A DNA stretch of 64,000 nt, taken from Asanoa siamensis (lineage in GTDB: Bacteria > Actinomycetota > Actinomycetes > Mycobacteriales > Micromonosporaceae). Below are positions 5,292 through 47,151 of the stretch, in pieces. The notes beneath the pieces were generated by a model. That model was not told the origin of the DNA and searched no databases. It worked only from the letters and a program-made list of their open reading frames with translations. The stretch spans positions 1 to 64,000 of the forward strand of contig NZ_BONE01000007.1 in assembly GCF_016862555.1 (NCBI RefSeq), in the 5' to 3' direction. How positions within the stretch are numbered: position 1 is the stretch's first letter; each line of letters begins with the position of its first letter. Both the position numbers and the translations under genes were made by a program.

Positions 5292-5709
5292 TGACGGGCG
5301 AGTCGGCTGGGCGGTCGCGTCGACGGCTGTCAGGGCCGTCGCCGAGGAACGTCCGGACTCCGCAGGGCAGGGTGGTTGTTAACGGCAACCCGGGGTGACC
5401 CGCGGGACAGTGCCACAGAAAACAAACCGCCAGGCGTACGCGCCTGGTAAGGGTGAAACGGCGGGGTAAGAGCCCACCAGCGCACCGGGCGACCGGAGCG
5501 GCTAGGTAAACCCCACCCGGAGCAAGGCCAAAAGGGCCGTCCGAACGCAAGATCGGACGACCTGCGCAGGTGTTCGAGGGCTGCCCGCCCGAGCCTGCGG
5601 GTAGGCCGCTGGAGCCTGCCGGCAACGGCAGGCCGAGATGGATGACCGCCACCGGTCGCCGCGAGGCGACAGGACACAGAATCCGGCGTACAGGCCGACT
5701 CGCCCGTCA
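5292..5709 (+). ncRNA. rnpB: RNase P RNA (type A)
   Basis: Catalytic RNA subunit of RNase P, about 418 nt. The ends pair: TGACGGGCGAGTCGG (5292-5306) is complementary to CCGACTCGCCCGTCA (5695-5709), giving helix P1. Conserved core pieces appear in order: GAGGAACGTCCGGACTCC after the P2/P3 region, ACAGAAAACAAACCGCC, AAGGGTGAAACGG, AGAGCCCACC, GGTAAACCCCACCCGGAGCA, and near the 3' end CAGAATCCGGCGTACAGGCC. All are diagnostic of bacterial type A rnpB. The gene also marks the left edge of the atypical island that follows. Confidence 0.97.
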
Positions 5710-43928: not shown

Positions 43929-44861
43929 TCAGGCGGCCGGCGTACGCGCCGCCAGCGCCTGCTGGTAGAGACGGCCGGCCCGGTAGCTGGAGCGGACCAG
44001 CGGCCCGCTCATCACGCCCGCGAAGCCGATCTGCTCCGCCTCCTGGGACAGCTCCATGAACTCCTCCGGCTTGACCCAGCGCTCGACCGGGTGGTGCCGC
44101 GGTGACGGGCGCAGGTACTGCGTGATCGTGATCAGCTCGCAGCCCGCCGCGTGCAGGTCGCGCAGCGCCTGGGAGATCTCCGACCGGTCCTCGCCCATGC
44201 CGAGGATCAGGTTGGACTTCGTGACCAGGCCGAAGGCGCGCGCCTGCGTCAGCACGTCCAGCGAACGCTCGTACCGGAAACCGGGTCGGATCCGCTTGAA
44301 GATCCGGGGGACCGTCTCCAGGTTGTGCGCCAGCACCTCGGGCCGCGACTCGAAGACCTCGCGGAGCAGCTCCGGCGTCCCGTTGAAGTCCGGGATGAGC
44401 AGCTCGACGCCGCAGCCCTCCTGGAGGGCGTGGATCTGGCGGACCGTCTCCGCGTAGAGCCACGCGCCGCCGTCCGGCAGGTCGTCGCGGGCCACGCCGG
44501 TGACCGTCGCGTAGCGCAGGCCCATCGTCGCCACCGACTCCGCGACCCGGCGCGGCTCGTCGGCGTCGAACTCGGCCGGCTTGCCCGTGTCGATCTGGCA
44601 GAAGTCGCAGCGCCGGGTGCACTGGTCACCCCCGATCAGGAAGGTGGCCTCCCGGTCTTCCCAACACTCGTAGATGTTGGGACAGCCAGCCTCCTGGCAC
44701 ACGGTGTGCAAGCCTTCGCGCTGCACCAGACCGTGGAGCGAGGTGAACTCGGGGCCCATCTTGGCCTTCACCTTGATCCACGGCGGCTTGCGCTCGATCG
44801 GCGTCTCGGCGTTCCGCGCCTCGATGCGCAGGAGCCGGCGGCCTTCTGGAGCGATCGTCAC
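43929..44861 (-). CDS. lipA: Lipoyl synthase
   Basis: A 310-aa radical-SAM enzyme inserting two sulfurs into the octanoyl chain on lipoyl domains. The auxiliary cluster ligands are Cys55, Cys60 and Cys66 ([14 protein letters not shown]); the radical-SAM ligands are Cys81, Cys85 and Cys88 (CTRRCDFC). The C-terminal RSSY motif ([11 protein letters not shown]) that binds the sacrificial cluster is intact. GTG 44861 follows TACGCT (44874-44869) by 7 nt, so it is leaderless. It acts after LipB and on the E2 protein encoded at the right edge of the window. Confidence 0.98.
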
Positions 44862-44973
44862 GAATCCGAGCGTATCCCGCTGGGCATCCAACCCACATGC
44901 GGGGCGACACGGTTCACATGCGCAACAGGCCATGTGACCCCTGTCATAGGGCCACATCGGTGGCACCGTCCGG

Positions 44974-45213
44974 TAACCTCACCCGCAACGGCGCAGACGG
45001 AACCAAGTAGCGATCGACCACGCCGGCAGAGAGAGCCACCACGTGCTGTGACGGTGGCCCGGCGCCGGTCGCGAAGACACTCCCGAGCCGGAGCACGACA
45101 AATGAGGCCCGGGCGCCGCCACAGCGCCAGGGCGAAGGTGTGGTGGCACCGCGAGGAACCCGCTCGCCCACACCTCCCGGGGATCGCGTTGCGACCGACG
45201 AGGAGGTCCACTC
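44974..45213 (+). promoter_or_regulatory. T-box leader (Asp) of aspS2 with SD-sequestering switch
   Basis: TAACCT (44974-44979) is a likely -10, placing the RNA 5' end near 44986. Stem I holds AAGTAG (45005-45010), an AGAGAGAG bulge (45028-45035), and a helix CGACC (45015-45019)/GGTCG (45067-45071) next to a specifier loop GAAGACA, where GAC (45076-45078) is an Asp codon. The conserved T-box GGTGGCACCGCG lies at 45143-45154; its TGGC (45144-45147) would pair with a tRNA ending GCCA, as expected for tRNA-Asp (G73). GGTGTG (45137-45142) can pair with CACACC (45169-45174), while overlapping ACCTCC (45172-45177) can instead pair with the GGAGGT Shine-Dalgarno (45202-45207). Confidence 0.82.
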
Positions 45214-46473
45214 ATGCAACGCATCCTGTCCAGCCAGCTGCCCGCCCACGCCGGCAGCACCGTCACCGTCGCCGGCTGGGTCCATCGCCGCCGCGTGCTG
45301 AAGGCGGTCGCCTTCCTGATCCTGCGCGACCGGGCCGGCCTGGTCCAGATCGTCATCACCGACCCTGACCTGCGCGAACAGCTCGAGGAGCTGACCGAGG
45401 AGACGGTCGTCGAGGTCACGGGCCTGGTGACGATCAACAGCGCCGCGCCGCTGGGAGTGGAGATCACCGAGCCGGTGGTACGCCCGTTGAGCGCCGCCGC
45501 CGCGCCGCCCCCCTTCGACCTTTACCGGCCGCTGCTCTCGGCGACCCTGCCCACCCAGCTCGACCACGCGTCGGTGGCGCTGCGGCACGCGACACGACGC
45601 CGCGCCGTCACGGCCGCGGCTGCCGCCGCCGAGGGTTTCCGGCGCACCCTCGACGCCCGCGGCTTCACCGAGATCTTCACGCCGAAGATCGTCGCCTCGG
45701 CCACCGAGGGCGGGGCCAACGTCTTCGGCATCGACTACTTCGGCAGCCGCGCCTTCCTGGCCCAGAGCCCGCAGTTCTACAAGCAGCTCATGGTCGGGGT
45801 CTTCGAGCAGGTCTACGAGGTCGGCCCGGTGTTCCGCGCGGAGCCGCACGACACCGCCCGGCACCTGGCCCAGTACACGTCGCTCGACGTCGAGCTCGGC
45901 TTCATCGAGGACCACCGCGACGTGATGGCGGTGCTGCGCGACGTCGTGGCCGGCATGACCGACGCGGTCTCCGAGCGGCTGCCCGGCGTCAAGATGCCGG
46001 ACGTGCCCGCCGAGATCCCGGCCGTCCACTTCACGACCGCGCTGGAGATCGCCGGCGCGCCGGACGACGAGCCCGACCTGGCTCCCGCGCACGAGCGCGC
46101 GCTGGGCGAGTGGGCGGTCCGCGAGCACGGCTCGGACTTCCTCTTCGTGACCGGCTACCCGATGCGGAAGCGGCCGTTCTACACGCACCCCGAGCCGGGC
46201 CGACCGACCCACTCGAACTCGTTCGACCTGCTCTTCCGCGGCCTGGAGATGGTCACCGGTGGGCAGCGGCTGCACGAGCACGCCGACTACGTCGCCGCGC
46301 TGAACGGCGACCTGACCGGCGTCGAGACCTACGTCGAGGCGTTCCGGCACGGGATGCCGCCGCACGGCGGTTTCGCCATCGGCCTCGAGCGCTTCGTGGC
46401 CCGCCTGCTCGGCGCGACCAACGTCCGCGAGGTCGCGGTCTTCCCCCGCGACCTGCACCGCCTGACGCCGTAA
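45214..46473 (+). CDS. aspS: Archaeal-type aspartate--tRNA ligase
   Basis: A 419-aa class II synthetase: N-terminal OB-fold anticodon-binding domain (TVTVAGWVHRRRVLKAVAFLILRDRAGLVQIVI) and catalytic domain with motif 2 (YEVGPVFRAEPHDTARHLAQYTSLDVELGF) and motif 3 (GGFAIGLERFVARLLG). It lacks the roughly 100-residue insertion of bacterial AspRS, so it belongs to the short archaeal/eukaryal AspS2 type, often non-discriminating. A housekeeping bacterial-type AspRS probably exists elsewhere in the genome. Expression is apparently controlled by the T-box leader. GGAGGT precedes ATG 45214. It is inserted between lipA and lipB. Confidence 0.92.
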   Translation: MQRILSSQLPAHAGSTVTVAGWVHRRRVLKAVAFLILRDRAGLVQIVITDPDLREQLEELTEETVVEVTGLVTINSAAPLGVEITEPVVRPLSAAAAPPPFDLYRPLLSATLPTQLDHASVALRHATRRRAVTAAAAAAEGFRRTLDARGFTEIFTPKIVASATEGGANVFGIDYFGSRAFLAQSPQFYKQLMVGVFEQVYEVGPVFRAEPHDTARHLAQYTSLDVELGFIEDHRDVMAVLRDVVAGMTDAVSERLPGVKMPDVPAEIPAVHFTTALEIAGAPDDEPDLAPAHERALGEWAVREHGSDFLFVTGYPMRKRPFYTHPEPGRPTHSNSFDLLFRGLEMVTGGQRLHEHADYVAALNGDLTGVETYVEAFRHGMPPHGGFAIGLERFVARLLGATNVREVAVFPRDLHRLTP

Positions 46474-46512: not shown

Positions 46513-47151
46513 TCAGCCCAGCAGGGTGGGCAGGCGGCGCTCCACGATCGGGAGCACGTCGTCGACGGTCACCTGGCGGCCCAGCTCGGCCGTCAGCGAC
46601 GTGGTCGTCGCGTCGCGGATGCCGCAGGCCACGATGTGGTCGTAGGCGGCCAGGTCGCAGTCGGCGTTGATCGAGAAGCCGTGCTGGGTGACGCCGCGAG
46701 AGACCCGGATGCCGATCGCGGCGACCTTGCGGGCCGGCCCGCGGTCGTCCTCGGGCACCCAGACGCCGCTGCGGCCCTCGATGCGGTCGGTGTGCAGGCC
46801 CAGCTCGGCGCAGGTGTCGATGAGCATCTGCTCGGTGCGCCGCACGTAGGCGACCACGTCGATCGGCGCGGGCAGGCGCAGGATCGGGTAGCCGACGAGC
46901 TGGCCCGGGCCATGCCAGGTGATCTTGCCGCCACGGTCGACGTCGATCACGGGGCTGCCGTCGGTCGGCCGGTCCCAGGGCTCGGTCCGCTTGCCGGCGG
47001 TGTACACGTACGGGTGCTCCAGGAGCAGCACGGTGTCGGGAGTGACGCCGTTGGCCACCTCGTCGTGGAGGCGGCGCTGCTCGTCCCAGGCCGCCAGGTA
47101 GTCGATCGTGCCGAGGCGGCGGGTCAGGAGCTCGGGAAGCACGCTGGTCAC
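46513..47151 (-). CDS. lipB: Lipoyl(octanoyl) transferase
   Basis: A 212-aa enzyme moving octanoate from acyl-carrier protein to lipoyl domains. The catalytic Lys142 (RKVAAIGIR) and Cys176 (VACGIRD) are present, as are the [18 protein letters not shown] and [15 protein letters not shown] segments. GTG 47151 lies 6 nt after TACAGT (47163-47158), giving a leaderless start. It provides the substrate for LipA; in mycobacteria lipB and lipA are adjacent, whereas here aspS is between them. Confidence 0.97.

Follow-up and report, generated by a model that had tools for sequence, protein, structure and literature searches.

The 5′ leader of aspS2 in Asanoa siamensis is very probably a T-box riboswitch that is specific for tRNA-Asp, has a translational output and controls a back-up aspartyl-tRNA synthetase (AspRS), judging from its sequence and those of its relatives. 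The leader occupies positions 44989–45213 of the window, the whole 64,000-nt stretch of DNA that was analyzed, and lies directly 5′ of aspS2 (45214–46473), which encodes an archaeal-type AspRS of 419 aa; both are on the forward strand, as are all leader features below. From this arrangement we infer tRNA binding, switching and a physiological role. An uncharged tRNA-Asp would pair at two places, through its GUC anticodon with the GAC specifier of Stem I and through its G73-CCA end with a UGGC bulge, stabilizing the antisequestrator helices A1 and A2; the antisequestrator would then take an ACC from the sequestrator, expose the Shine-Dalgarno sequence GGAGGT and allow AspS2 to be translated. 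A charged tRNA-Asp would make no end contact, leaving the sequestrator to mask the ribosome site. AspS2 would serve as a back-up AspRS, supplied whenever tRNA-Asp is left uncharged by the bacterial-type AspS1; the proposed triggers are aspartate shortage, or inhibition or overload of AspS1.

The transcribed leader probably starts near 44984 and not at 44974, because TAACCT (44974–44979) resembles a −10 element. The element is a weak call from the sequence; TANNNT occurs 24–42 nt 5′ of the AGTA motif in 82 of 87 long-Stem-I leaders, and a sigma-70 scan of 44850–45300 found no consensus promoter-like site near the leader. Just 5′ of the probable −10 element, and probably outside the RNA, there is a T-box-core-like palindrome (CGGTGGCACCG, 44958–44968). 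Long Stem I (44989–45090), delimited by alignment to the Rfam model RF00230 and by covariation, consists of a basal helix (CGGC/GCCG), a kink-turn-like GA/GA, a GGA/TCC helix, the specifier loop, a middle helix, an AGAGA bulge and a distal loop. The two GA steps at its base are on opposite strands between covarying helices, a resemblance to a kink-turn that is read from sequence only. The 5′ side of the specifier loop is AGTA (45006–45009), which aligns to the AGUA of RF00230 and is invariant in an alignment of 33 leaders, whose members were selected for AGTA and GAAGA[C/T]; together with the AGAGA bulge and the distal loop, it corresponds to conserved Stem I parts in the Rfam alignment. The specifier codon GAC (45076–45078) is within GAAGACA (45073–45079), and is directly followed by the A at 45079, a position that is A or C across the long-Stem-I leaders.

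Downstream, the sequence and the RF00230 alignment place a Stem III hairpin (GCCC/GGGC plus inner pairs) at 45107–45133, followed by the T-box core GGTGGCACCGCG at 45142–45153. The 5′ strand of antisequestrator helix A1 (GGTGTGG, 45137–45143) pairs with its 3′ strand (CCACACC, 45168–45174), enclosing the T-box bulge UGGCACC (45144–45150), whose UGGC is predicted to pair with the G73-CCA end, and helix A2 (GCGAG/CTCGC) with its loop (45151–45167). The 5′ strand of the sequestrator, the anti-Shine-Dalgarno ACCTCC (45172–45177), folds onto the Shine-Dalgarno sequence (45202–45207), 6 nt before the ATG at 45214. The ACC at 45172–45174 is common to both competing pairings. A first-pass annotation of this DNA had named the core, the GAAGACA motif with its GAC, the TGGC bulge and both pairings of the switch, and each of them is located where it had put them.

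The annotation's identification of a T-box holds through a full-length alignment and through covariation in both domains. RF00230 aligns over its whole length (model positions 1–219) to 44985–45174 with 35.1 bits at a relaxed threshold (E of 2.5e-6 for the 411 bases searched, and 1.2e-5 for the whole genome); at the default Rfam threshold, a gathering score of 93 bits, no T-box is reported in the leader, so that the covariance model bears out the annotation by alignment and E-value and falls short by score. The gathering score is a curation rule and not a property of the RNA. A search of the whole genome finds two places, the aspS2 leader and a second leader with 50.9 bits, which we take from the adjoining reading frame to be that of ileS; because this second T-box also falls under 93 bits, the threshold looks too stringent for this genome. 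Among 16 other aspS2 leaders, none scores above the gathering score and ten match at E ≤ 0.01. The leader of aspS1 has no T-box core. Elsewhere in the window, there is a class A RNase P RNA at 5299–5706 (282 bits).

A chance occurrence of the motifs was considered and rejected. When the 240-nt leader was shuffled 20,000 times with its dinucleotides preserved, the core motif appeared 136 times, AGTA followed by GAAGAC at a distance of 50 to 90 nt appeared 72 times, and the two appeared together only once, even with their order left free. Single-sequence folding is uninformative, its energies being ordinary (z of −1.25 for the leader and 0.06 for an isolated Stem I). Folded at minimum energy, the whole leader lacks the T-box form of Stem I, and Stem I by itself forms its upper helices only.

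The alignments carry the structural evidence. For Stem I, 33 less-alike leaders were picked from 87, and the tested structure omits some of the helix that lies above the specifier loop, where the alignment is unsure; 95.1% of cells are paired, 15 of 21 tested pairs are changed on both sides, and the covariation score of 0.336 compares with 0.031–0.073 for slid partners and is reached in none of 500 shuffles. For A1 and A2, 96.4% of cells are paired across 54 distinct rows, as against at most 58.1% for slid partners. Five of the 13 pairs are changed on both sides, three of them among the five pairs of A2, and the double changes in A1 include U-A to C-G and G-C to A-U. There are 23 double-change cells versus 4.8 in shuffles, with none of 500 shuffles as high; on one of the five measures, further pair types, the shuffles were not exceeded (137 of 500).

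Specificity for tRNA-Asp was examined across 96 leaders, comprising the window, 79 named relatives, 15 leaders from an even sample of the class, and the leader of genome G007; one named relative (L032) was dropped for having no core, and two members (L087 and L088) may repeat Micromonospora already present among the named relatives. In 87 of the 96, GAAGAC is present with A or C after it, under a pattern that permitted only GAC or GAT, and GAT is absent. The remaining nine comprise eight leaders with a short Stem I, in which GAC is in the loop of a hairpin of 4–6 pairs, and one without Stem I (L030); in three of the eight (L090, L096 and L099), the hairpin was assigned by reading, as the automatic search ranked other hairpins first. 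All readable specifiers in the set are GAC and none is AAC. The bulge is TGGC in 90 of the 96 leaders and TGGT in six. The window's genome has one tRNA-Asp (GTC) and one tRNA-Asn (GTT) by the tRNA pattern that was used, both with G73; since the bulge would fit either, discrimination between them must come from the specifier. GAC complements the GTC anticodon of the host's tRNA-Asp, and the gene downstream encodes an AspRS. The aspartate specificity named in the first reading is thus upheld by the specifier, by the G73 of tRNA-Asp, and by the lack of any other codon among the long-Stem-I leaders.

The enzyme adds a complication to this specificity. AspS2 scores 510.2 bits against NF003483, the equivalog for aspartate--tRNA(Asn) ligase (cut-off 353), and 345.9 bits against TIGR00458 (aspS_nondisc), under its cut-off of 368.4; because the second cut-off is missed, AspS2 is called only probably non-discriminating. 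Its nearest solved structure is the non-discriminating AspRS-2 of T. thermophilus (1n9w/3kfu), and its H24 and P79 align with H and P of that enzyme (1n9w), the corresponding residues of the T. kodakarensis enzyme being W and K. These positions in the anticodon-binding region are presumably determinants of tRNA-Asn charging. Further, an AsnRS is above cut-off in none of the 17 aspS2 genomes of the class sample, which makes charging of tRNA-Asn by AspS2 plausible. The T-box might accordingly be supposed to sense tRNA-Asn, or both tRNAs, with AspS2 serving a tRNA-dependent route to Asn: the matching H and P, the lack of AsnRS and the shared G73 all favor it, tRNA-Asn could read GAC by a first-position G-U pair, and the lysK T-box of B. 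cereus, on an archaeal-type class I LysRS, responds to both tRNA-Lys and tRNA-Asn according to the accessible part of its description (PMC2916919). It is an unlikely reading, since GAC is found in every leader with a readable specifier and AAC in none, and since TBDB, in the portion of its paper that is available, reports that canonical pairing is strictly preferred at the specifier (PMC7778990).

With tRNA-Asp as the probable ligand, an inducible back-up AspRS is the simplest and best reading of aspS2 and its switch. A bacterial-type aspS1 is above cut-off in all 17 aspS2 genomes of the class sample. The AspS2 of the window, whose assembly is 8.8 Mb, is 94–95% identical to those of three Asanoa species and 35% identical to AspS1 over part of its length; by its sequence, it is a distant archaeal-type enzyme and no recent duplicate of AspS1. 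The first-pass annotation had considered an Asp T-box on a duplicated AspS2 to be unusual; AspS2 is indeed an extra AspRS, and the arrangement extends beyond one strain, to 17 of 296 genomes of the class. The leader is between aspS2 and a divergent gene (43929–44966, reverse strand), which we take from its sequence to be lipA; a second reverse-strand gene, 3′ of aspS2 (46513–47151), we likewise take to be lipB. Within 1.5-kb flanks of the named loci (the best 80 of 188), lipA is found at 80 and lipB at 58. Neither gene was found in 8–20 kb around aspS2 in 13 genomes from other families, two of them with little upstream sequence, which indicates either that the switch and the gene travelled together or that the gene order around them changed. 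A different role, in which AspS2 serves a special Asp-tRNA pathway such as natural product synthesis or peptide ligation, is improbable: at the named loci the lip genes are a housekeeping setting, and a T-box answers a shortage of charged tRNA, as suits a back-up supply. Its precedent is that extra synthetase-like enzymes can serve biosynthesis, as stated in the accessible text of a review (PMC9437257).

The output of the T-box is most likely translational, as the first reading had it, with the Shine-Dalgarno sequence paired to the antisequestrator strand and no terminator-like site in 44850–45300. In the isolated 81-nt segment 45136–45216, the sequestrator has a predicted energy of −33.3 kcal/mol versus −29.6 kcal/mol for the antisequestrator, and this preference of about 3.7 kcal/mol agrees with a default off state of the switch. 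Even in the enforced antisequestrator state, GGA of the Shine-Dalgarno sequence stays paired to UCC, so that the unmasking of this sequence may be partial. Across the 96 leaders, the Shine-Dalgarno sequence folds onto the 3′ strand of A1 or the next 5 nt in 74, compared to a mean of 0.16 per leader in shuffles of the part upstream of it, and in 67 it has no more than one unpaired base, compared to 0.32 in shuffles. Sequestration is not predicted in the other 22, comprising 17 Micromonospora leaders, which have an additional hairpin and a longer spacer, and five from other families (L089, L090, L091, L094 and L101).

Those 22 leaders leave some room for a T-box whose main output is transcriptional, by way of Rho or a terminator that escaped detection, with the Shine-Dalgarno pairing being secondary; the accessible part of a review also notes that most annotated T-boxes act on transcription (PMC7583486). 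The probability of such an output is low, given that no terminator-like site was found and that pairing of the Shine-Dalgarno sequence with the antisequestrator strand is much commoner in the leaders than in shuffles. By reading, a ACCTCCAGG..CCTGGAGG(T) helix of 8–9 pairs is also present in four leaders (L096, L099, L100 and L097; three from family f28 and one from f38), and one of 8 pairs in a fifth (L098).

Persistence of the translational T-box was followed in two directions. Among named genomes, where the best 80 of 188 loci were kept, all of them from Micromonosporaceae, the core TGG[C/T]ACCGCG precedes aspS2 in 79, with L032 as the exception. In the class sample, an even draw searched at E 1e-80, all 17 aspS2 genomes have a T-box leader before the gene, two of them with a core that is one base off (L093 of G131, TGGCACCGGG, and the leader of G007). 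The comparison of leaders agrees with the first-pass annotation, as the core, GAC and the switch helices are kept in most of them. The aspS2 frame is uninterrupted in 16 of the 17 (431–635 aa); in G007 (L107, 267–4742), whose assembly is fragmented, an insert of about 3.2 kb interrupts it beneath the changed-core T-box, which suggests that aspS2 is dispensable there. In L030, Stem I is gone and the leader adjoins a Micromonospora intergenic repeat; this repeat (TAAGGAAGGGCCCC-type) is in the T-box linker 5′ of aspS2 in both L011 and L030. A leader that is non-regulatory, as a decayed or chance T-box-like sequence, is very improbable: the score under the Rfam cut-off and the decay of single leaders (L030 without Stem I, L032 without a core) point that way, and are set against covariation in both domains, persistence over several families and the single joint occurrence of both motifs in 20,000 shuffles.

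A pattern search for long Stem I, which cannot find the short-Stem-I forms, returned 74 places in 62 of the 296 class genomes. Of the 49 that were assessed, 12 have T-box features (11 before aspS2 and one, in G182, before another AspRS) and 37 do not. In a sample of the phylum, AspS2 is found in three of 396 genomes (E 1e-70), two of them being Micromonosporaceae; the third (G497, 42% identity) has no T-box core in 400 nt. Records of phages contain nine distant AspRS matches.

Several lineages lack most of Stem I, or Stem II, in what is a single regulator of a single gene, and keep GAC. Micromonospora and several families have a long Stem I and a Stem II before aspS2; Asanoa, the Actinoplanes group and G007 have a long Stem I without Stem II; and the short Stem I is found in Catellatospora, in G068 and in a group drawn from families f28 and f38. 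In particular, the leader in the window has the distal AGAGA and loop elements, a short linker and no Stem II, unlike the short-Stem-I archetype of ileS. On the AspS2 tree (without G007), the short form needs three changes, and well-supported branches force at least two; the short-Stem-I G068 and the long-Stem-I G084 are sisters with support of 100/99. In the same genome as the window, the ileS T-box (G000:C10:15312-15475, L005) apparently has, by reading, a short Stem I with ATC and a UGGU bulge, so that one genome contains both layouts, a long one (aspS2) and an apparently short one (ileS).

The base 3′ of the specifier varies with Stem II. It is A in all 17 long-Stem-I leaders that have a linker shorter than 90 nt and no Stem II, and C in 69 of the 70 with a linker of 90 nt or longer; the sole exception (L093) and the leader of Nonomuraea (L184) have A, and by reading their Stem II is reduced to a small hairpin. 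The short-Stem-I forms have A or G at this position, also by reading. The pattern, which rests on few independent lineages, makes sense in light of structural work which, according to the accessible part of a review, indicates that a purine after the specifier matters much more without Stem II (PMC7583486). These lineage variants are ready-made tests of domain roles, and of how Stem II is linked to the base that follows the specifier.

The same switch also precedes a second kind of AspRS. G182, probably a Streptomyces, has a full Asp T-box (69.8 bits, under 93) upstream of a different archaeal-type AspRS, probably on its chromosome (L168, 13604–14920, reverse strand), and carries aspS1 too. 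The genes around it are, as we take them from their sequences, transposase-like, DnaE-like and phage-like. Among solved structures, its archaeal-type AspRS is closest to the T. kodakarensis enzyme. Nine other relatives of this AspRS in the class (E 1e-100) are all from family f38; none of the nine has a T-box core before the gene and none has aspS1 above cut-off, and for both reasons it is probably the ordinary AspRS of that family.

Some copies are on plasmids. A plasmid of Streptomyces sp. NBC_01724 (L181) has the same arrangement as G182, an Asp T-box with a G182-type AspRS. Asp T-boxes also precede aspS2-like genes in Nonomuraea gerenzanensis (in a record of 11.9 Mb that is labelled as a plasmid), on pSCAT of Streptantibioticus cattleyicolor (where the match covers residues 3–336 only) and, in a short form that RF00230 did not find, on a Rhodococcus plasmid. 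The cores of NBC_01724, pSCAT and Nonomuraea are one base off each. Plasmid-borne archaeal-type AspRS genes occur well beyond the actinomycetes, in Rhizobium leguminosarum, Devosia, Macrococcus and Paraclostridium. The Paraclostridium bifermentans plasmid (L185) has a T-box with GAC and UGGC before aspS, at 118.8 bits and thus above 93; before the AspRS gene on pRLa12 of Rhizobium leguminosarum (L186), no T-box core was found.

These observations allow a more tentative proposal, that an Asp T-box with an archaeal-type AspRS might be a portable, self-inducing shield against microcin C-like inhibitors of AspRS. A drug would block AspS1, uncharged tRNA-Asp would build up and be sensed by the T-box, and a distant, drug-insensitive AspRS would be translated. 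Microcin C inhibits AspRS so that uncharged tRNA-Asp accumulates, according to the accessible part of PMC7136475, and this is exactly the signal that an Asp T-box would read. Two distinct archaeal-type AspRS branches stand behind the same switch, some of them on plasmids. The sporadic distribution, the plasmid copies and the tolerated loss (G007, L030 and L032) would fit a role in defense against AspRS inhibitors, which is plausible. If the back-up role is true, the leader would provide an RNA-sensed rescue of tRNA-Asp charging, possibly against antibiotics that target AspRS.

T-boxes, Asp specifiers and T-box-controlled second synthetases are already known, as the accessible parts of earlier reports attest (PMC2494555, PMC7778990 and PMC2916919); the literature that was accessible yielded no account of a translational T-box for Asp in actinomycetes, and TBDB may contain Asp entries from them. 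The nearest relatives in mechanism are the actinobacterial translational T-boxes, which the accessible literature describes for ileS and to which the leader would add an aspartate branch, one that the Rfam threshold misses in the window as well as in each of the 16 other leaders that were scored. Like the ileS T-boxes of M. tuberculosis and N. farcinica (RF00230; TBDB class II), the aspS2 leader sets an antisequestrator against a Shine-Dalgarno sequestrator and has a bulge and a specifier; unlike them, it specifies Asp instead of Ile and controls an extra synthetase instead of the only one. It also differs from most translational T-boxes, which have a short Stem I according to the available part of PMC7583486, in having a long Stem I with distal elements and no Stem II.

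T-boxes before an extra AspRS have a counterpart in C. acetobutylicum, where one is located before one of three aspS genes (the type of AspRS not being stated in the part of PMC2494555 that is accessible), and in the plasmid aspS of Paraclostridium bifermentans. The latter shares with the window GAC followed by A, the UGGC bulge and an archaeal-type AspRS, the enzymes being 40–41% identical; its leader scores above the Rfam cut-off, in contrast to that of the window, and by reading has a T-rich, terminator-like tail in place of Shine-Dalgarno sequestration. Like the lysK T-box of B. cereus, the aspS2 switch controls an archaeal-type second synthetase beside a bacterial one; the lysK case concerns lysine, in Bacillus, and T-boxes of LysRS are reported for only four species in a study of 891 genomes (PMC2916919, accessible part), in contrast to 17 of 296 class genomes for the Asp type. 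Finally, the auxiliary synthetases TrpRS1, IleRS2 and SerRS2 are described as antibiotic resistant in the portion of PMC9437257 that is available, where no auxiliary function is tabulated for AspRS. For AspS2, antibiotic resistance would be a prediction; in common with them, it is a second, distant synthetase beside a housekeeping one, with what would be its own expression pattern.
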